Source of the DNA: Daejeonella oryzae DSM 19973
GTDB taxonomy: Bacteria > Bacteroidota > Bacteroidia > Sphingobacteriales > Sphingobacteriaceae
Direction: 5' to 3'
NCBI RefSeq assembly: GCF_000422945.1
Contig: NZ_AUHA01000008.1
Span: forward strand, 18,915 to 82,914
DNA: 64,000 nucleotides
Part shown: positions 30,570-39,799 of the stretch, one piece after another
Layout of the letters: the number at the start of each line of letters is the position of its first letter
Position numbering within the stretch: position 1 is the stretch's first letter
Translations under genes and position numbers: made by a program
The notes under the pieces: model-generated
Told to the model about the DNA's origin: nothing
Seen by the model: only the letters and a program-made list of their open reading frames with translations
Databases searched by the model: none

Positions 30570-31820
30570 TTAATCTGCAACAGCTCTGAACATTAATGCG
30601 GCAACCGTTAAATTGGTTCGGCTATCAATTAATATGGCTCCACCATTAGATTTATTTTCCTGATACAAATCAAATGTCAGATTTCCTGCAGTTTTTAAAA
30701 CCACTCTTCCAATCTCATTTAAGTTGAACACATGAGGGCTTAACTTTTCCAGTGTATTAATATTAACCTGATAGAGAATTTCCTGAATTCGGCATTTGCT
30801 GACTTTACTATTATGTTGTATTAAATATGTTAAACCAATATCTAAAGGCTGCGAATCCATCCAGCATAAATCTGCTTCGATTAAATTAGAGTTTTTAGGA
30901 AGATTTTTTTCACCAACAATTAAATCGCCTCTGCTTACATCAACATTATCCATTAAATGGATGGTTGCCGACATTCCCGTGTTTGCATTTTCAATCTCGT
31001 TTTCAAAAGTTTCAATTTTGCTGATGACAGATCTGGATCCTGAAGGCATAATTACAACACGGTCATTTACTTTAAAAGTACCGCTTAAAACACGGCCCGC
31101 ATAGCCGCGATAATCGTGTAACTCATCTGTCTGTGGCCTGACAACCCACTGAACCGGCATTCGTGCCTGATCTAAATTTATATCTTCAGTCAGAGAAACT
31201 GATTCCAAATGATCCAGTAAGCTTTTGCCCTGAAACCAGTTCATATTCATAGACTTATTGACCACATTATCCCCTTTTAAGGCGCTCACCGGAATATATG
31301 TAACATCATGAAGATTAAGCTGTGATGCAATAGCAGAATAGGCACTTCTGATTTGATCAAATACGGTCTGATCAAAATTAACCATATCCATTTTATTGAT
31401 ACAAACAACTACATGTTTTAACTCAAGGAGAGAAACAATAAATGAATGCCGCATGGTTTGTTCAACCACACCCTTACGGGCATCAACCAGTATAATGGCC
31501 AGATTGGAATTGGAAGCGCCGGTAACCATGTTTCGGGTATACTGAATATGTCCAGGTGTATCTGCAATGATGAACTTTCTCTTTTCGGTCTGGAAGTATT
31601 TATACGCTACATCGATAGTAATTCCCTGCTCACGTTCTGCTTTCAGCCCATCGGTTAAAATAGCCAGATCAATAGTTCCGTCATCATTTTTGCGGTTTGA
31701 GCGCTGCAACGCTTCCAGCTGATCCGCCAGTATTGATTCACTATCATATAATAGGCGCCCTATCAGCGTACTTTTTCCGTCGTCAACACTTCCGGCAGTA
31801 AAAAATTTAAGTAAATCCAT
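30570..31820 (-). CDS. cysN: sulfate adenylyltransferase subunit 1 (GTPase)
   Basis: CysN is the regulatory GTPase of ATP sulfurylase, which with CysD makes adenosine 5'-phosphosulfate (APS). The 416 residues start LKFFTAGSVDDGKSTLIGR (P-loop). The G-domain motifs DTPGH (IIADTPGHIQY) and NKMD (VVCINKMDMVNF) follow, then EF-Tu-like beta-barrel domains. An open frame extends 46 codons further upstream but lies inside cysD and does not resemble CysN, so I start at the ATG 2 bp before the cysD stop. No C-terminal APS kinase (CysC) domain is present. That agrees with a pathway going directly from APS to sulfite. Confidence 0.93.
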   Translation of the reverse strand: MDLLKFFTAGSVDDGKSTLIGRLLYDSESILADQLEALQRSNRKNDDGTIDLAILTDGLKAEREQGITIDVAYKYFQTEKRKFIIADTPGHIQYTRNMVTGASNSNLAIILVDARKGVVEQTMRHSFIVSLLELKHVVVCINKMDMVNFDQTVFDQIRSAYSAIASQLNLHDVTYIPVSALKGDNVVNKSMNMNWFQGKSLLDHLESVSLTEDINLDQARMPVQWVVRPQTDELHDYRGYAGRVLSGTFKVNDRVVIMPSGSRSVISKIETFENEIENANTGMSATIHLMDNVDVSRGDLIVGEKNLPKNSNLIEADLCWMDSQPLDIGLTYLIQHNSKVSKCRIQEILYQVNINTLEKLSPHVFNLNEIGRVVLKTAGNLTFDLYQENKSNGGAILIDSRTNLTVAALMFRAVAD

Positions 31821-31821
31821 A

Positions 31822-32763
31822 TTAAAAATATCCTCCTTTTTTGCGGTCTTCCATGGCAGCTTCAGAAACTTTATCGTCCATACGGGCGCCGCGTTCTGAA
31901 ATCTTAGAAGCTTTAATCTCTTCAATAATATCATCAATCTGATCGGCTTCTGACTCAATGGCCGCCGTACAGGTCATATCTCCCACGGTTCTGAACCGCA
32001 CTTTTTTACTTGAAACAACATCCAGATGATCCATGTTCAAATGATCGGCCGCTGCCATAATCTGCCCGTTTCTGGTAATTACTTCACGACTATGAGCAAA
32101 ATAAATGGAAGGTAATGAGATTTTTTCTCTTCGGATATAGTTCCATACATCCAGTTCAGTCCAGTTACTTATCGGAAAAACCCGAACATTTTCTCCTTTA
32201 TGAATTCTTCCATTGTAAATATTCCAAAGTTCGGGGCGCTGACGTTTCGGATCCCATTGACCAAATTCATCACGAACAGAAAATATGCGTTCTTTTGCAC
32301 GGGCCTTTTCTTCATCCCGGCGGGCTCCGCCAATACAGGCATCAAAACCATGAGCTGCAATTGTATCCAGCAAAGTAGACGTTTGAAGAGAATTTCTGCT
32401 GGCATTTTTACCTTTCTGTTCAATCACTTTTCCCTGGTCAATTGAATCCTGAACATATCCAACAATCAATTTTTCATTAATCCGGTTAATCATTTCATCC
32501 CGGTAGGTAATAGTTTCGGGGAAATTATGTCCGGTATCGATATGTACCAGCGGAAAAGGAAACTTTCCGGGTCTGAAGGCTTTTTCAGCCAGTCTAACCA
32601 GCGTTATAGAATCTTTGCCGCCGGAAAACAATAAAGCTGGCTTTTCAAACTGACCTGCCACTTCACGCAAAATGTAAATGGCTTCAGATTCCAGCTGATC
32701 CAGATAATCAGCATCCTGTTTATTCATGTGTATTGGATATTGTGAATTTATTAATTCTGTCAT
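31822..32763 (-). CDS. cysD: sulfate adenylyltransferase subunit 2
   Basis: CysD is the catalytic subunit of ATP sulfurylase, of the PP-loop ATP pyrophosphatase family. The pyrophosphate loop is PALLFSGGKDSITLVRLAEKAF, with further blocks VHIDTGHNFPETITYRDE, ACIGGARRDEEKARAKERI and FPISNWTELDVWNYI. I use the ATG at 32761-32763 (MTELINS), directly after the cysH stop. An ATG 36 bp further in (MNKQDADYL) fits the E. coli length better, and an upstream ATG would overlap cysH. It lies between cysH and cysN in the sulfur operon. Confidence 0.93.
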   Translation of the reverse strand: MTELINSQYPIHMNKQDADYLDQLESEAIYILREVAGQFEKPALLFSGGKDSITLVRLAEKAFRPGKFPFPLVHIDTGHNFPETITYRDEMINRINEKLIVGYVQDSIDQGKVIEQKGKNASRNSLQTSTLLDTIAAHGFDACIGGARRDEEKARAKERIFSVRDEFGQWDPKRQRPELWNIYNGRIHKGENVRVFPISNWTELDVWNYIRREKISLPSIYFAHSREVITRNGQIMAAADHLNMDHLDVVSSKKVRFRTVGDMTCTAAIESEADQIDDIIEEIKASKISERGARMDDKVSEAAMEDRKKGGYF

Positions 32764-32764
32764 T

Positions 32765-33472
32765 TCATTTTTCTTTAGTAGCATGCAGGCCGCACTCTTT
32801 TTTATTTTGATCTTCCCACCACCAGCGGCCTGCCCTGAAATCTTCTCCTTCTTTCACAGCTCTGGTGCAGGGTGCGCAGCCAATGCTGGGAAATCCCCGG
32901 TCATGAAGTGAATTATATGGGATATTATTTTCGCGGATATAATCTTTAACCCGGTCTAAGCTCCAATCAAAAAGTGGATGAAACTTTATAATCTGGTTTT
33001 GAGAATCCCATTCCATCGCATCCATGGTTTCGCGATTTAATGATTGTTCTGCTCTGATACCGGTTATCCATATTTCATTGCCAGCAAGAGCACGCTTTAA
33101 AGGTTCAATTTTGCGAATAGAACAGCACTCTTTTCGGTTTTCTACAGATTCGTAAAAACTCGTTGGCCCCTTTCTGCTGACCATATTTCCCACCAATTCC
33201 GTATCCGGATAAAACGCATCAATGGGTTTACCATATCTTTCGATTGTTCTGCTCCATACAGAATAGGTTTCAGGAAACAGCCTGCCGGTATCAAGCGTAA
33301 ATACTTTTATGGGCAAGTGGTTAGAAAATATTATATGAGTGAGCACCTGGTCTTCCCAGCCAAAACTGCTGGAGAAAATGAGTTTACCATTGAAACGATT
33401 TGCCAAAAAAGCAAGTGATTCCGGAATGTCAAGCTTTTTTATATCCATCAATAAATTCTGCGTTAGATCCAT
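32765..33472 (-). CDS. cysH: assimilatory adenylyl-sulfate (APS) reductase
   Basis: CysH reduces the activated sulfate to sulfite with thioredoxin. The 235 residues contain SSSFGWEDQVLTH, TLDTGRLFPET, and the catalytic Cys in KECGLH (C227) near the C-terminus. The pairs C116-C117 and C199-x2-C202 form the [4Fe-4S] site that marks APS reductases and is missing from PAPS reductases. Together with the lack of cysC here, the substrate should be APS, not PAPS. It is preceded by 70 bp after metZ, containing a small TCACT/AGTGA hairpin. Confidence 0.94.
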   Translation of the reverse strand: MDLTQNLLMDIKKLDIPESLAFLANRFNGKLIFSSSFGWEDQVLTHIIFSNHLPIKVFTLDTGRLFPETYSVWSRTIERYGKPIDAFYPDTELVGNMVSRKGPTSFYESVENRKECCSIRKIEPLKRALAGNEIWITGIRAEQSLNRETMDAMEWDSQNQIIKFHPLFDWSLDRVKDYIRENNIPYNSLHDRGFPSIGCAPCTRAVKEGEDFRAGRWWWEDQNKKECGLHATKEK

Positions 33473-33542
33473 ATTATATAATTCCTATTGACTATGTAGA
33501 TTATTATTTCAAATCACTTTTATTTAGTGACCTTTTATAAAG

Positions 33543-34709
33543 TTAAATTGAGTTTTTAAGAGCCGTAAAGATATCTTCCAGAATATCATCCAAATCTTCA
33601 AGCCCTACTGAAATTCGTATCGTTCCGGGATATATTCCAATTTGAGCCCGCTCTTCATCACTCAATTTAGAATGTGTAGTAGACGCGGGATGAGTAGCAA
33701 TAGATCTCGAATCACCAAGATTGGGAGTTAAAAGAATCATTTTAAGTTCATCCATAAATATCTTGGCACGTTCAAATCCGCCTTTAACAGTAAAAGTTAC
33801 AACGCCGCCACCTTGTTTCATCTGCCTTTTGGCTAGTTCATATTGCGGGTGTGATGGCAAATGCGGGTAGCGAACTTCCTCCACTTCCTGATTTTTTTCC
33901 AGCGCTTCTGCAACCTTTAAGGCATTGCTGCAATGCCGGTCCATTCGAAGAGTAAGAGTTTCGAGGCTTTTGGAAATAGTCCATGCATTGAAAGCAGACA
34001 TTGCCGGTCCGGTATGACGGATAAAAAACATGAGTTCTTTCATAAGATCGGCTCTGCCGACCACCACACCACCTAAAACCCGGCCCTGCCCATCCATATA
34101 TTTAGTTGCCGAATGACTGACTAGGTCGGCACCGTACTCTATTGGTTTTTGGAGATAAGGTGTTGCAAAGCAATTATCCACATTGAGAATAAAATTATGT
34201 TTTTTCTTAAGTCTTCCTAACCATTCCAGATCAACTAATTCTAATCCGGGGTTTGAGGGTGTTTCCAGGAATACCATTTTAGTTTCGGGGCGAAGAGCTT
34301 TTTCAAAATATTCAGGTTTTGATGCATCTACATAAGTGGTGGTTATGCCCCATCGCGGCAGCAACTGAGTGAACAGCTGGTGAGTAGAGCCAAAAACTGA
34401 ACGAAAAGCTACAATATGATCACCGCTTCGGAGCAATCCGGCGATAGAAGCAAAAACAGCGGCCATTCCCGAGGCAAATGCAAGACCTGCTTCTGCCCCT
34501 TCCATTTCAACAATTTTATTTATAAACTCAGATGTATTTGGATTGGAATATCTGGAATATAAGTTCCCCTCAACTTCGTCAGCAAACATGGCCCGGCCGT
34601 GTTCGGCATTATCAAAAACAAAACTCGATGTAAGATAAAGCGGCACGGAATGCTCACGGTTACTTGAACGGGTTGTCTGGCTGCGGATTAATTTTGATTG
34701 TTCTCTCAT
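33543..34709 (-). CDS. metZ: O-succinylhomoserine sulfhydrylase-like PLP enzyme
   Basis: This is a Cys/Met-metabolism PLP enzyme of about 388 residues. It has the start SNREHSVPLYLTSSFVFDNA, the tetramer-forming YSRYSNPNT, the PLP region ASGMAAVFASIAGLL, FVLNVD-like LNVDNCFATPYLQKP and the Schiff-base Lys in SATKYMDGQGRVLGG. That last motif with GQGRVLGG is the MetZ signature. It would use the sulfide produced by this operon to make homocysteine from an activated homoserine. I prefer the ATG at 34707-34709; a TTG 42 bp upstream is the alternative. No homoserine acyltransferase is near. Confidence 0.9.
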   Translation of the reverse strand: MREQSKLIRSQTTRSSNREHSVPLYLTSSFVFDNAEHGRAMFADEVEGNLYSRYSNPNTSEFINKIVEMEGAEAGLAFASGMAAVFASIAGLLRSGDHIVAFRSVFGSTHQLFTQLLPRWGITTTYVDASKPEYFEKALRPETKMVFLETPSNPGLELVDLEWLGRLKKKHNFILNVDNCFATPYLQKPIEYGADLVSHSATKYMDGQGRVLGGVVVGRADLMKELMFFIRHTGPAMSAFNAWTISKSLETLTLRMDRHCSNALKVAEALEKNQEVEEVRYPHLPSHPQYELAKRQMKQGGGVVTFTVKGGFERAKIFMDELKMILLTPNLGDSRSIATHPASTTHSKLSDEERAQIGIYPGTIRISVGLEDLDDILEDIFTALKNSI

Positions 34710-34770
34710 TAGTGATGTAAAATTTGGAAATAGATCCAATTGTTTTTTCAATTCATCTAAAAATACCCAT

Positions 34771-36273
34771 TTATATTAGATTCATTATTGTACTCAAAAT
34801 GTTTTTAAGACTTGCCAGGATTACTATAATCCCTACGGAAACCATAATGACTTTTACCGAGATACGGTTTGAAAGCCGGGCTGCAAGTGGTGAAGCAATA
34901 GCGCTGCCAATAACCAGACCGAGTAAGGCATTCCAATGAAGGTTGTTAAGCATGGTAATAAAGGTTAAAGAACTCATCAGGGCGATAAAAAACCGCGAAA
35001 GCTTTACTGTGCCTAATGCATAGCGGGCATTTCTGCCTCCCGCAATTAATGAAGACAGTACAATAGAACCCCAGCCACCGCCACCAACAGCATCTATAAA
35101 TCCGCCGCCAAAACCCAATGGAATTATTTTTTGAATCTTTTTACCCGTTCTTTTTTTGTTAACATGAAAAGATTTGCGGAGAATTACCGCTCCTAAAATC
35201 AAGGTATAAAGCGATACCACCGGACGTGTATAATGACTGTAATGTTCTAATGAAGATAGAATATATGCCCCGCTTACTGCGCCGATAATTCCCGGGATTA
35301 CCAGCTTGTAAAACATACGCATATTCACATTCTTCATCCGGAAATGCATCCAGCCGGCAATTCCATTGCTCATAATTTCAGAAACATGAACGGCGGTGCT
35401 GGCAGAAGCAGGCGGAATTCCCATGGAAAGTGCAAAAGTGGTTGAAGTTACTCCGTATGACATTCCAATAGCTCCATCTATCATTGCGAAAAAAAATCCT
35501 GCAATAAGGAAATAATAAAAACTGGGATGAATATCTATAAGGTAAGATTTGAAAGCTGCATTATTCTCCCAGAACAAAACAGCAATGATTGCAATAGAAA
35601 TTACTAAAGAACTCCAAATGAGCCAGCGCATCCTTTTACTGGATGGTTGTTCTGCAACTGGTTCCACTAATATTGCCGTAGCCTTATTCAGCTCTTTCAC
35701 TTTATAAGCGAAATCACCGTTTAACTTAATTCTTAATTTATTGATCTGCTGTAGCGTATCGTCAATTTCATCAGGCAAATTTGCCTGCAGCATTTCCTTT
35801 AACCTTTTAGCAACAGTTGGCGATTTGCCATTGGTAGAAATGCCCAGCTTCAGATCACCTTTTTTAACGATAGAACCCAGATAAAAATCACAAAGATCCG
35901 GCTTATCGGCTACATTGATCAGTAAGCGCCGATGACGAGCCAATTGCCTGATCATTTCATTAATAAGCGGCTGATCTGTAGCCACAATCACCAGATCTTT
36001 GTTATCAAGATCGTTTTCTTCAAAACTGCGCTTAACAATCCTCAGCCTGGAATAAAGCTCTGCTAATTCGTTCACCTCGGGGCTAACGTGCTGCGCCACA
36101 ACAGTTATTTGAGTTTGCGGGCTGTTAGCCAGTATAGCAGACAGTTTTTCCAGTCCTACATTTCCGGCACCAACAAGCAACACGTGCAGATGATTCAATT
36201 TCAGGAATACAGGAAAAAGCTGATTCCCTGTTTCCTCAAATTCCGCGATCCCGTTATTCTTCGGCAAATTCAT
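34771..36273 (-). CDS. precorrin-2 dehydrogenase fused to TauE/SafE (TSUP) permease
   Basis: This 500-residue protein has two unrelated halves. Residues 18 to about 175 are the CysG/Met8 N-terminal type: FPVFLKLNHLHVLLVGAGNVGLEKL (NAD-binding), VIVATDQPLINEMI, LINVADKPDLCDFYLGSIV and STNGKSPTVAKRLKEML. They oxidise precorrin-2 to sirohydrochlorin. From about 219 (WLIWSSLVISIAIIAVLFW) the rest is a membrane permease with about eight helices and two TSUP motifs (GFFFAMIDGAIGMSYGVTST and GFGGGFIDAVGGGGWGSIV). TSUP proteins carry sulfite, sulfonates or related anions. Position between the methyltransferase gene (20-bp overlap) and metZ ties both halves to siroheme-dependent sulfite reduction. Confidence 0.92.
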   Translation of the reverse strand: MNLPKNNGIAEFEETGNQLFPVFLKLNHLHVLLVGAGNVGLEKLSAILANSPQTQITVVAQHVSPEVNELAELYSRLRIVKRSFEENDLDNKDLVIVATDQPLINEMIRQLARHRRLLINVADKPDLCDFYLGSIVKKGDLKLGISTNGKSPTVAKRLKEMLQANLPDEIDDTLQQINKLRIKLNGDFAYKVKELNKATAILVEPVAEQPSSKRMRWLIWSSLVISIAIIAVLFWENNAAFKSYLIDIHPSFYYFLIAGFFFAMIDGAIGMSYGVTSTTFALSMGIPPASASTAVHVSEIMSNGIAGWMHFRMKNVNMRMFYKLVIPGIIGAVSGAYILSSLEHYSHYTRPVVSLYTLILGAVILRKSFHVNKKRTGKKIQKIIPLGFGGGFIDAVGGGGWGSIVLSSLIAGGRNARYALGTVKLSRFFIALMSSLTFITMLNNLHWNALLGLVIGSAIASPLAARLSNRISVKVIMVSVGIIVILASLKNILSTIMNLI

Positions 36274-37042
36274 AAAAAGCCCTGATCGGTTGAAATAAAG
36301 GATGCAATCCCACTACGTCTCCAAAAATTATAATAGCCGGGGAGTCAATGTTTTTATCTCTTGCGGTTTCAACAATCGTGTCAACAGTTGCTACTGCTAT
36401 CTTTTCGCCTTCCATTGATCCGTTTTGAATCACCGCAACCGGTAGCCGCTGTTTTCCCTCGGCTTTAAAAATTTCTGCAATTTCTGCCAACTTTTTTATT
36501 CCCATTAAAACGATAACGGTTGCCCTTGATTTGGCTGCTTCGTAAACATCCTGAGAAACTTTACCCGAGGAAGTTGTTCCGGTTACTACCCAAAAACTTT
36601 CGCTTAAACCGCGATGTGTTACAGGAATACCCTGCAATCCCGGGACTGCTATGGAACTGGAAACACCCGGAATAACCTCGGCTGCAATACTGTAAGAAGC
36701 TGCAAAATCAAGCTCTTCGAAACCCCGGCCAAATACAAACGGGTCTCCGCCTTTAAGGCGAACCACATGTCCATAATTTAAAGCGTAATCAATCATCAGC
36801 CGGTTGACTGCATCCTGAGAATAGGAATGATCTCCTGATCTTTTTCCAACAAATACACGGGTTGCTTCCGCAGGTGCAAATTCCAGTAATTCGTCATTAA
36901 CCAGCGCATCATATAAAACCACATCAGCACTTTTGAGTGCTTTAATTGCCTTTAATGTAATTAAATCCGGATCACCGGGACCGGCGCCTACAAGCGTTAT
37001 TCTAGGTTCTTTTACAAAAGTTTTTATCTGAGTGTTTATCAT
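36254..37042 (-). CDS. cobA: uroporphyrinogen-III C-methyltransferase
   Basis: This 262-residue SUMT methylates uroporphyrinogen III at C2 and C7 to precorrin-2, the branch point from heme to siroheme. It has the glycine-rich SAM motif TLVGAGPGDPDLITLKA, DVVLYDALVNDELL, RLKGGDPFVFGRG, VIPGVSSSIAVPGLQGIPVTHRGL and VIVLMGIKKL. It is translationally coupled to the sulfite reductase gene by a 4-bp ATGA overlap and overlaps the next gene by 20 bp. Siroheme made by this and the following gene is the cofactor of the reductase encoded just upstream. Confidence 0.95.
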   Translation of the reverse strand: MINTQIKTFVKEPRITLVGAGPGDPDLITLKAIKALKSADVVLYDALVNDELLEFAPAEATRVFVGKRSGDHSYSQDAVNRLMIDYALNYGHVVRLKGGDPFVFGRGFEELDFAASYSIAAEVIPGVSSSIAVPGLQGIPVTHRGLSESFWVVTGTTSSGKVSQDVYEAAKSRATVIVLMGIKKLAEIAEIFKAEGKQRLPVAVIQNGSMEGEKIAVATVDTIVETARDKNIDSPAIIIFGDVVGLHPLFQPIRAFYEFAEE

Positions 37043-39141
37043 TCTCGAATCAGCGACTCCCTTTCCGCTTTAATTTTGGTCATAAAATCTGTTACTGCAT
37101 CCAGATAAAAGGATGCAAATTCTTTACCCGGTTCATTTTTATTGATTTGCAAAACCAGTTCGGTGAAGCTTGATTGATTCATCAGGAATGTATTCCCTTT
37201 AAATTGCTCGTCAAAATCACGGATGATTCCGGTATGCGTGCTGCTGTTTATTCCTTTATCAAGAAGTAAAGCTTTGGCCGCCCCCACAAATACACTGTAG
37301 CTATGATAAATGGAATCAGCGTAAGCGTCATTTTTAAAGGATTCTGTAGCCCATTCCAATTTTTCATCGGATTCAAGCAGCAAAGTTGCCACCAGATCTA
37401 TCATTACCCCGGCGCATTCGCCAACGCCAATGGCCGTTTTAAAAACTTCTTCGTGACCCCAGTCTATGTAATCCTGATCTTTTAAATTTCCGGTATCGGC
37501 CAGCGGCTTTAATAACTGATAGAAATAATCTTTTCCACGGCGATCATAGTAGTGATTGAAAAGTTCATCAGGCAAACTGTTTTCATGATAATCGTCGAGC
37601 ACAAATCGCAATACGATAGTGGCTCTTTTTGAGGGGACTTTAATAATCTTCTCTGCTGCACGACCGGCACCGTCTCTTAAAACGCCACCGCCCAATAACA
37701 CCTGAACTGCAGGAACCACTTTGCCATTTGCCTTTATAGAACTCCCGTGAAAACCAAGATGAGCCAGACCATGCTGCCCGCAAGAATTCATACAGCCGCT
37801 AATTTTTATCTTGATATCGCGGTTATAAACTAAATCCTCATATTCTTCATAGATGACGTTTTCGAGCACACGTGAAAGTTCTGTACTGTTTGATATCCCC
37901 AAATTACACGTATCTGTACCCGGACAAGTAGTGATATCAGCTACGCTGTCAAAGCCGGTTTCTGCAAGTTCCAGATCTACCAATCCTGAATATAATTGCG
38001 GTAAAGCCTCTTTTTTTACAAATTTCAATAGCAGTCCCTGATTTTGCGTTATCCGAATTTCATCGGCCACCAAATCCTTGATAACTTCTATAAACTTTCT
38101 GGCTTTTTCGGTGGGAATATCCCCGGTACTGACTTTGACATAAACACCAAAATATCCCTCCTGCTTTTGTTCAAAAACGTTTGTGGCCAGCCATTTATCG
38201 TAGTTCAGGTTTCCATTTGCCTCGCTAAATAAATAATCTGATTTCTCCGGAAGTTTTGGCAATGGAATTAATTCTCTGTTAATCCAATAATTTGTTGATT
38301 TATTGGCCAGTTTCTCCTCTTCAATTAAACGCAATACTTCTTCTAAACCAATTTTTTGGATCAGGAATTTAAGGCGGGCCTTATTCCTGTTATTACGTTC
38401 TCCATGACGATCAAAAACACGGAGAACAGTTTCTATATAAGGAATGAGCTCTTCTTCAGCTAAAAATTCATTTACAGCATGAGCCAAATAAGGCTGTGCT
38501 CCTAGACCTCCGCCGAGCAGAACTTTAAAACCTCTGATCTCCTGTCCGTTTTCAATTTTCAGTTTCGGAATAAAACCTAAATCGTGAATGAAAGTAAAAG
38601 CAGTATCAGCTTCGCTGGACGAAAATGCAATTTTAAACTTACGACCCATTTCCTGACAGATGGGATTACGCAAAAAATATTCAAATACAGCGTGTGCATA
38701 AGGCGAAACATCAAAAGGCTCCTCAGGGTCAATTCCGGATGTTGCGGATGCTGTTACATTTCTAACGGTATTGCCACAAGCTTCCCGAATGGTGATTTCA
38801 TCCTGTTCCAGTTTTTCCCAGAGTTCGGGAGTTTTATCCAGGCTTACATAATGTATTTGAATATCCTGGCGGGTGGTGAGGTGGAGATTTCCGCTTGCAT
38901 ATTCATCAGAAATATCTGCAATACGCAGCAGTTGCCTGAAAGTAACTTTACCAAATGGCAATTTAATTCGAATCATTTGTACTCCGGGCTGGCGCTGTCC
39001 GTAAATGCCCCGGGCAAGCCTTAAACTCCTGAACTTATCATCGTGAATTTTACCCTCACGGTATAACCTGATCTTCTTTTCAAGATCTATGATATCTTTT
39101 TGAACTACAGGATTTTCTAATTCGGTTCTGAAACTTTGCAT
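37039..39141 (-). CDS. siroheme sulfite reductase with C-terminal HEPN-like domain
   Basis: This is a 700-residue hemoprotein of the nitrite/sulfite reductase family, first gene of the sulfur operon. The ferredoxin-like domains and siroheme-binding repeats are visible (RQPGVQMIRIKLPFGKVTFR, TTRQDIQIHYVSL, NVTASATSGIDPEEP). The [4Fe-4S]-siroheme ligands are C406-x5-C412 and C450-x3-C454. The context (APS reductase, ATP sulfurylase) makes sulfite the substrate. After about residue 560 the protein continues for about 140 residues beyond the usual catalytic core. That part (YADSIYHSYSVFVGAAKALL, HTGIIRDFDEQF) resembles a HEPN helical domain. Its purpose is unknown. Confidence 0.9.
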   Translation of the reverse strand: MQSFRTELENPVVQKDIIDLEKKIRLYREGKIHDDKFRSLRLARGIYGQRQPGVQMIRIKLPFGKVTFRQLLRIADISDEYASGNLHLTTRQDIQIHYVSLDKTPELWEKLEQDEITIREACGNTVRNVTASATSGIDPEEPFDVSPYAHAVFEYFLRNPICQEMGRKFKIAFSSSEADTAFTFIHDLGFIPKLKIENGQEIRGFKVLLGGGLGAQPYLAHAVNEFLAEEELIPYIETVLRVFDRHGERNNRNKARLKFLIQKIGLEEVLRLIEEEKLANKSTNYWINRELIPLPKLPEKSDYLFSEANGNLNYDKWLATNVFEQKQEGYFGVYVKVSTGDIPTEKARKFIEVIKDLVADEIRITQNQGLLLKFVKKEALPQLYSGLVDLELAETGFDSVADITTCPGTDTCNLGISNSTELSRVLENVIYEEYEDLVYNRDIKIKISGCMNSCGQHGLAHLGFHGSSIKANGKVVPAVQVLLGGGVLRDGAGRAAEKIIKVPSKRATIVLRFVLDDYHENSLPDELFNHYYDRRGKDYFYQLLKPLADTGNLKDQDYIDWGHEEVFKTAIGVGECAGVMIDLVATLLLESDEKLEWATESFKNDAYADSIYHSYSVFVGAAKALLLDKGINSSTHTGIIRDFDEQFKGNTFLMNQSSFTELVLQINKNEPGKEFASFYLDAVTDFMTKIKAERESLIRE

Positions 39142-39153
39142 GCGCCATTAATT

Positions 39154-39186
39154 AAAAAACCTCTTCTGCTTTTTGGGCTGAGGAGG
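39154..39186 (-). terminator. intrinsic terminator in the sulfur-operon leader (attenuator)
   Basis: On the minus strand CCTCCTCAGC and GCAGAAGAGG form a 10-bp stem (one mismatch, one G-T pair) around a 7-base loop, followed directly by TTTTTT. It lies only 12 bp before the sulfite reductase start codon and downstream of a short ORF, so it would stop transcription inside the operon leader. This is the placement of an attenuator or riboswitch platform, not of an end-of-gene terminator, although it could also end rrf2 transcripts. Confidence 0.7.
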
Positions 39187-39221
39187 CTAGTAATATTTTA
39201 TATTAAATTATCTATGAATCT

Positions 39222-39278
39222 TCAAAATTGCACCAATTGCATAATCAGGCAACATAGTGGCATATTTGAAAGGCTCAT
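39222..39278 (-). CDS. 18-residue leader peptide with adjacent Cys codons
   Basis: ATG at 39276-39278 to TGA at 39222-39224 encodes MSLSNMPLCCLIMQLVQF. Two consecutive Cys codons (TGT TGC) lie at positions 9-10 of 18, and three of the residues are Met. It begins about 20 bases after a predicted transcription start, the bases before the ATG are A-rich as is normal for Bacteroidota starts, and the stop is 36 bp before the terminator hairpin. This order (promoter, Cys-containing short ORF, terminator, sulfur-assimilation operon) fits ribosome-mediated attenuation sensing charged Cys-tRNA. Translation of the ORF is not proven. Confidence 0.5.
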   Translation of the reverse strand: MSLSNMPLCCLIMQLVQF

Positions 39279-39303
39279 ATTTAATTTGTTATTTTTCACG
39301 GTT

Positions 39304-39311
39304 CAAATATA
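39304..39311 (-). promoter_or_regulatory. candidate -7 promoter box of the sulfur operon
   Basis: The minus strand reads TATATTTG, an exact TAnnTTTG match. A transcript starting a few bases downstream would give a 5' UTR of roughly 20 bases before the leader ORF. The upstream region is AT-rich without a clear TTG at -33, which would suit a promoter dependent on an activator or the Rrf2 protein. Confidence 0.45.
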
Positions 39312-39352
39312 TATAAAGTATATAGATTTAGTAGTCTTTATTTAAAAAAATA

Positions 39353-39799
39353 TTAAATCACGGTTTTTGAGTCAGAAAGCGTGTTTTCACGCTCGATTAC
39401 ATCGGCAATACTCGTTTCTGTTAGAATTTTAAGGGAAGCATTTCGAACCTCCATAAACACATCGCGGATACCGCAGGTTTCTTCATTCATACATTCTTCG
39501 CATCGCTGATAAAAATTTAGGCTAACACAGGGCAACAAAGCAATTGGGCCTCCGGTAATACGCAAAACCTGGGCAAGTACTATTTCTTTAGGATCTTTAA
39601 TTAAACTGTATCCTCCGCCTGCTCCTTTTTTACTGTACAGTAAACCAGCATTACGGAGGTCGAGCAATATTTGCTCTAAGAATTTTTTAGGGATGTGTTC
39701 TTCGGCTGCAATTCGGGAAATCTGCATAGGCTCATTACCAAAATTTTTACCCATCACGACCAGAGCCTTGATAGCGTAACGTGTTTTTTTGCTCAGCAT
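39353..39799 (-). CDS. Rrf2-family transcriptional regulator
   Basis: In this 148-residue protein the winged-helix N-terminus is typical of Rrf2 (KKTRYAIKALVVMGKNFG, IAAEEHIPKKFLEQILLDLR, GGGYSLIKDPKEI). Four cysteines follow the DNA-binding part: C91, C100, C103 and C109. IscR and NsrR bind an Fe-S cluster with three Cys in this region, whereas CymR, which represses cysteine genes in Bacillus, has none. Position 211 bp upstream of the sulfite reductase operon suggests it controls that operon and senses sulfur or Fe-S status. It lies 3 bp after uvrA and so may be transcribed with it. Confidence 0.88.
   Translation of the reverse strand: MLSKKTRYAIKALVVMGKNFGNEPMQISRIAAEEHIPKKFLEQILLDLRNAGLLYSKKGAGGGYSLIKDPKEIVLAQVLRITGGPIALLPCVSLNFYQRCEECMNEETCGIRDVFMEVRNASLKILTETSIADVIERENTLSDSKTVI

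Follow-up and report, generated by a model that had tools for sequence, protein, structure and literature searches.

A candidate cysteine attenuator with a covarying antiterminator upstream of sulfate-assimilation genes in Daejeonella oryzae and other Bacteroidia

The window analyzed here, a stretch of 64,000 nucleotides from Daejeonella oryzae DSM 19973, carries a sulfate-assimilation gene cluster on its minus strand. The first gene of the cluster (37039..39141, minus strand) encodes a 700-amino-acid protein of the sulfite/nitrite reductase family (Pfam NIR_SIR, 1.1e-46; NIR_SIR_ferr, 4.8e-33), referred to below as the sulfite reductase. The rest of the cluster (30570..37042, minus strand) encodes a uroporphyrinogen-III methyltransferase, a CysG-N/TauE fusion, an O-succinylhomoserine sulfhydrylase-like protein, an APS/PAPS reductase, CysD, and CysN. 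Gene order and spacing suggest that the cluster is expressed as one transcript. The C-terminal residues 587 to 644 of the sulfite reductase match the Pfam HEPN domain (5.9e-6), and the fusion gene (34771 to 36273, minus strand) joins a CysG N-terminal (siroheme) domain to a TauE/SafE sulfite-exporter domain in one 500-amino-acid protein. Upstream of the cluster and on the same strand lies a gene for an Rrf2-family regulator (39353..39799, minus strand; Pfam PF02082, 9.5e-37; NCBIfam rrf2_super above its cut-off). The encoded protein is CymR/IscR-like but scores below the cut-offs of those equivalog models.

The regulator and sulfite reductase genes are separated by a minus-strand leader of approximately 170 nt. 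Read in the direction of transcription, its parts are preceded by ACTAAATCTATAT (39320..39332, minus strand), a candidate operator recognized by its match to a conserved promoter motif found in relatives, and begin with a -7 promoter box, TATATTTG, of the Bacteroidota TAnnTTTG type (39304..39311, minus strand; box type as in PMC9723704). The initial annotation of this leader listed the box, an 18-codon open reading frame (ORF) with two adjacent Cys codons, a hairpin, and six T. All four elements are present, but the ORF is longer than was proposed: the frame of the ATG-started ORF MSLSNMPLCCLIMQLVQF (39278-39222, minus strand) remains open upstream to a GTG at 39299, yielding a leader ORF of 25 codons, MKNNKLNMSLSNMPLCCLIMQLVQF (39222..39299, minus strand). 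The tandem Cys codons TGT TGC (39249..39254, minus strand) are the predicted stall site. They are followed by a region that we call segment 2 (39211..39237, minus strand), which can pair with the 5′ arm of the terminator to give an interrupted antiterminator (duplex, -8.0 kcal/mol). Folding places this 5′ arm and the loop in segment 3 (39172..39191, minus strand), which is common to both hairpins. The terminator hairpin itself, GCCTCCTCAGCCCAAAAAGCAGAAGAGGT (39159..39187, minus strand; -8.5 kcal/mol), contains a C.A mismatch and runs into a U tract of six T (39154..39159, minus strand), the first of which closes the hairpin in the fold. As originally described, the hairpin and U run end 12 bases before the sulfite reductase ATG (39141). 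The accompanying argument that a terminator directly before a first gene must be conditional does not hold, because such a position alone is no proof of conditional control.

To determine how broadly this arrangement is conserved, we collected the regions upstream of sulfite reductase orthologues from 187 loci (30 + 30 + 20 + 80 named + 27 new). Left out were L001 (whose DNA is already in L002), L041 (5 nt of upstream sequence), and 22 regions that duplicated another in the last 150 nt, leaving 164 distinct regions of the 187 loci. A strict test required that the last 330 nt contain a terminator-like hairpin and that a Cys-Cys short ORF end no more than 90 nt before it. Such a hairpin was detected in 117 of the 164 regions, and a Cys-Cys upstream ORF (uORF) stood ahead of it in 79 of these 117. 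When only the 170 nt ahead of each real terminator were shuffled, a Cys-Cys uORF arose in 86 of 2,340 trials. For the window sequence alone, the combination of features is therefore only modestly unlikely, and it is conservation that lifts it above chance. The remaining 85 of the 164 regions failed the strict test. By inspection, the test missed L009, L062, and L114, and it counted L018 only by way of a short internal ORF; leaders that bear Cys codons without a Cys-Cys run (L004, L011, L072, and others) also stand outside the 79.

The 80 named loci were scored by a rule in which the uORF starts 1 to 15 nt past a box. A Cys-Cys run was present in 21/44 Pedobacter loci (another 10 had Cys but no run), 19/25 Mucilaginibacter loci (2 more with Cys but no run), 2/2 Parapedobacter loci, 1/1 Daejeonella locus, 0/1 Olivibacter locus, and 2/7 less precisely titled metagenome-assembled genomes (2 more with Cys). 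Across the class, the gene was found in 43 of 159 genomes, 38 of them outside the family of the window. Loci were fetched from 25 of these 38 genomes (L164 to L188), and 13 of the 25, spread over 10 family groups, carried the element. Six groups (g3, g5, g7, g12, g17, and g21) lacked it in all 21 fetched loci. The only other cysteine gene covered was cysE, which had a strong match in 9 of 10 same-genus genomes searched; no Cys-Cys or Cys-x-Cys short ORF was present in the 300 nt upstream of cysE in these nine, indicating that the element does not precede every cysteine gene.

The coding content of the uORFs was examined in a set chosen blind to Cys, which comprised ORFs of 8 to 45 codons with ATG or GTG exactly 4 nt past TAnnTTTG (58 of the 164 regions). 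In this set, Cys accounted for 12.7% of codons in frame (2.5% expected from composition) and for 7.8% and 1.3% in the other two frames, the 7.8% probably arising from in-frame ATG followed by T or C. Cys was present in 56 and Cys-Cys in 41 of the 58. Across 129 same-length pairs of 83 uORFs, Cys was the most conserved residue (0.76); it was retained at 237 compared positions, where the third base differed in 30, and lost at 153. Conserved Cys codons with third-position drift, together with a conserved terminator, were what the initial annotation had expected of related leaders, and both were found. We rejected a chance ORF on the basis of the shuffles (86/2,340 against 79/117) and of the Cys content of the 58-uORF set.

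The start of the uORF is tightly placed relative to the promoter. A TAnnTTTG-type box lies upstream in 73 of the 79 attenuator loci, and in 40 of these 73 the first in-frame start follows it by 4 nt, the commonest gap among relatives and that of the GTG at 39299 in the window; shuffled spacers gave the same gap in 60 of 3,650 cases. The box of Flavobacterium psychrophilum has been reported to span -12 to -5 (PMC9723704, section 15), so a 4-nt gap would place the start codon at +1. We therefore predict that transcription starts at, or a few bases from, the uORF start codon and that the leader peptide is translated from a leaderless mRNA. The same section describes leaderless mRNAs as a minority class in F. 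psychrophilum (5.5%).

In relatives, a segment near the uORF stop codon and the 5′ arm of the terminator have complementary sequences, whose letters differ by lineage. The segment 2/arm pairs are UUGAAGA/UCUUCAA in L005, from the genus group of the window; GUGGCUG/CAGCCAC in L066; GGAGGCUGU/ACAGCCUCC in L074; and GCGGAAG/CUUCCGC in L175, outside the family. Over all 79 leaders, mean pairing was -11.25 kcal/mol with the leader's own arm, -8.0 with shuffled segment 2, and -8.84 with swapped arms. For the 57 leaders less than 80% alike, own pairing averaged -11.77 against -9.24 (sd 0.32) for permuted partners, and for the 46 less than 70% alike, -12.37 against -9.66; in both sets 0 of 5,000 permutations were as low, with the reservation that the leaders are related and the permutations therefore not fully independent. 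The signal in single leaders was modest: 28/79 beat 95% of shuffles (median rank, 0.12), and 21/79 beat 90% of swapped arms. The first reading of the sequence had found no strong antiterminator by eye; a covarying one exists across relatives, but that of the window is interrupted. In relatives, segment 2 starts a median of 21 nt past the first Cys codon, and the stop codon ends a median of 5 nt after this start. This spacing fits classical attenuation, in which a stalled ribosome would free segment 2 and a ribosome at the stop codon would mask it.

Taken together, these results make it probable that the leader is a ribosome-mediated transcription attenuator for the sulfate-assimilation genes, as the initial annotation had suspected; recurrence in relatives and the covarying antiterminator both support that idea at the level of sequence. 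When cysteine is short, the ribosome would stall at the Cys codons for want of Cys-tRNA; segment 2, left uncovered, would pair with the 5′ arm of the terminator, and RNA polymerase would read into the sulfate-assimilation genes. With ample cysteine, the ribosome would instead travel as far as the stop codon and cover segment 2, and the terminator would form. Translation of the uORF, stalling, conditional termination, and the response to cysteine (perhaps methionine) are all predicted steps. Each of the classical sequence features of an attenuator that we examined is present: a short leader ORF with tandem codons for the pathway product; an intrinsic terminator between this ORF and the first gene, weak and mismatched in the window; a mutually exclusive antiterminator, found across relatives and interrupted in the window; and the spacing between Cys codons, stop codon, and segment 2 given above.

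The window's own copy is among the weakest, and its regulatory range may therefore be small. Its hairpin (-8.5 kcal/mol) is weaker than that of all but one (L016) of the 79 attenuator leaders and was not picked up by a simple terminator scan. The whole leader folds no better than shuffled sequence (z = -1.28; 23/200 shuffles as good). The C.A mismatch of the terminator corresponds to a T-A pair in L004, and the same base breaks the antiterminator, a loss partly compensated by the short pairs UUGG-CCAA, GC-GC, and UAG-CUA. We modeled the fold with a ribosome in place. With the ribosome at the first Cys codon and RNA present up to the loop, the antiterminator formed (-6.9 kcal/mol); with the ribosome at the stop codon, the terminator formed (-9.6). 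When the whole leader downstream of the stalled ribosome was allowed to fold, the window favored the terminator (-11.4), and the same outcome was obtained in 6/8 modeled leaders, that of the window included. Switching would therefore depend on the order of synthesis, that is, on folding during transcription.

That the window copy has decayed or is decaying is a real possibility. In the genus group, the gene is present in 17 genomes, and 11 of the 16 examined have a Cys-Cys uORF at the promoter. Two further leaders of the group, L004 and L011, contain Cys without a Cys-Cys run, and two others, L012 and the closest relative fetched, L003, lack both the uORF and the terminator. In L018 (G124), the promoter-proximal uORF ends early and the Cys codons lie in another frame, while the terminator and segment 2 are kept; this frame change is either a natural mutation or an assembly error. 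The absences in L003 and L012, the displaced Cys codons of L018, and the single base that disrupts both hairpins in the window are what would be expected if the family were a true cysteine attenuator whose window copy terminates weakly and retains no useful switching. Against this, the frame, tandem Cys codons, spacing, and U run of the window are all intact, and the compensating pairs leave a duplex of about -8.0 kcal/mol that only 5 of 100 shuffles of segment 2 equal. We consider so complete a loss of function unlikely in the window.

A different mode of action, in which the leaderless uORF acts on translation or mRNA stability and the hairpin is secondary, has a precedent in mycobacteria, where leaderless polycysteine short ORFs are cited by later papers as translational attenuators. 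We regard it as improbable here, given that 79 of the 164 regions combine the Cys-Cys uORF with a hairpin that has a U tail and an arm covarying with segment 2. Still less credible is the reading that the hairpin terminates the Rrf2 gene, which in the window does lie just upstream on the same strand, and that the uORF is there by chance. The promoter box precedes the uORF, the U run is only 12 nt from the ATG, and the uORF content is far from chance; moreover, 67 attenuator loci come with 1 kb or more of sequence upstream, and in 24 of them this stretch shows no Rrf2 match, on which count we rejected the reading. A terminator-bearing 5′ leader before a sulfur gene is a common setting for riboswitches, but control by a metabolite riboswitch (a SAM riboswitch included) or T-box is the least plausible explanation and was rejected, since what is conserved is a set of codons and a switchable arm and no curated covariance model matched (no Rfam family at gathering score in 14 loci; in the window, 38900-39600, only chance-level matches, all below gathering scores).

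In addition to the attenuator, the promoter region contains a conserved motif. The motif ACTAnnTCTATA precedes the -7 box; lineages that lack the attenuator have it just before the ATG instead. Many loci of the element-free groups (g3, g5, g7, g12, g17, and g21) have a motif like ATTAACTCTATAG 16 to 29 nt before the ATG, and in attenuator-bearing lineages a related motif, ACTAnnTCTATAT, begins 19 to 22 nt before the box. One or the other type was detected in 78 of the 164 regions (13.6 expected from shuffles), divided between 40/79 attenuator loci and 38/85 others. A natural guess is that the motif is an operator for the neighboring Rrf2 protein; this regulator is a possible repressor of the operon. 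Some loci also carry the element in duplicate. A search of 17 loci selected from outside the family showed, in L169 to L173, L178, and L185, a serial arrangement of two units, each consisting of a Cys-Cys uORF and a terminator behind it; the second uORF of L169 and of L178 came from other analyses of these loci. Such serial units occur in 7 of the 13 positive loci outside the family.

The uORFs are rich not only in Cys. In-frame Met, start codons excluded, made up 9.7% of codons in the 58-uORF set (114/1,177), an enrichment of about six-fold; the other two frames had 1.2% and 0.4%, and flanking sequence had 1.5%. The enrichment held on either side of the Cys codons (9.6% ahead of the first, 11.0% past the last), and Met adjoined 44 of 88 Cys runs. 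Its conservation (0.58) was not above that of Asn or Phe. Because the cluster would supply sulfide for both amino acids, joint sensing of Cys and Met by the leader peptide is plausible, although the internal ATGs could more simply be spare start codons. We offer only tentatively the wider proposal of a class-wide Bacteroidia attenuator for sulfur amino acids, one that is leaderless, responds to charging with both Cys and Met, stands beside a motif possibly bound by Rrf2, and is doubled in several families.

We also inspected leaders of other amino acid genes in related genomes. Of 16 trpE loci, 7 gave no ORF, and Trp-Trp leaders were found in 6 of the remaining 9 (L275, L276, L278, L279, L281, and L284, the last from the window's own genome). 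Their ORFs start 6 nt past a TAnnTTTG box, and a terminator-like hairpin is visible downstream. Leader-peptide attenuation looks general in the lineage, which favors the attenuator reading of the Cys-Cys leader. The Trp-Trp leaders share with the Cys-Cys element a short ORF after the box, tandem regulatory codons, and a terminator. They differ in sensing Trp and in having no Met enrichment (3 of 142 residues in the six leaders, counted by hand). Among 11 hisG loci, the script gave no ORF for 5 and no match for 6; His-rich short ORFs were seen by eye in the hisG leaders L249 and L251. Among 15 ilvD loci, 8 gave no ORF, and the lone match (L272) was unlike a leader.

Attenuation-like short ORFs have been described in 5′ leaders of Bacteroidota, both in F. 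psychrophilum, where they stand before amino acid operons (PMC9723704), and in Bacteroides thetaiotaomicron (PMC7366714). Leader-peptide attenuation has thus already been suggested for the phylum in general terms, and this kind of control is known there; the accessible text of these two reports names no cysteine case. Among the matches listed from the open-licence literature, we found no cysteine attenuator of Bacteroidota and no description of a +1 start, a covarying antiterminator, or serial units. Shine-Dalgarno sequences are reported, in the text available, to be lacking in the flavobacterium studied. If the leader ORF does begin at +1, it would show how initiation of a regulatory peptide is ensured in bacteria that lack Shine-Dalgarno sequences. 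Testable predictions follow from the serial units and from the combined Cys/Met content, and Pedobacter and Mucilaginibacter strains in culture carry strong copies, so that tests are practical.

Cysteine-coding leaders are known in other phyla. The mycobacterial short ORFs, as described in papers citing Canestrari et al. (2020), are attributed to translational attenuation, with a translation speed that depends on cysteine. They share with the Bacteroidia element contiguous Cys codons in a short ORF before cysteine genes; this ORF is leaderless in mycobacteria and only predicted to be so in Bacteroidia. The Bacteroidia element differs in phylum and in having a terminator and a covarying antiterminator. 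In Actinobacteria, cys operons are likewise preceded by leader ORFs that contain Cys runs, without conserved terminator hairpins according to the available text of PMC1262725, whereas a terminator belongs to the Bacteroidia element. A similar layout is seen in uORFC-8-2 of Rhodobacterales, in which two tandem Cys codons are followed by an intrinsic terminator and for which ribosome-mediated attenuation has been proposed (PMC8632094, as far as its text is available); that uORF precedes cysS in Alphaproteobacteria, whereas the one described here precedes a sulfite reductase gene in Bacteroidia. As these sources present them, the cysteine leaders of Actinobacteria thus lack a conserved terminator and that of Rhodobacterales controls a tRNA synthetase, whereas the Bacteroidia leader would represent the whole classical switch, covarying antiterminator included, acting on sulfate assimilation; attenuation in this phylum has been little charted.
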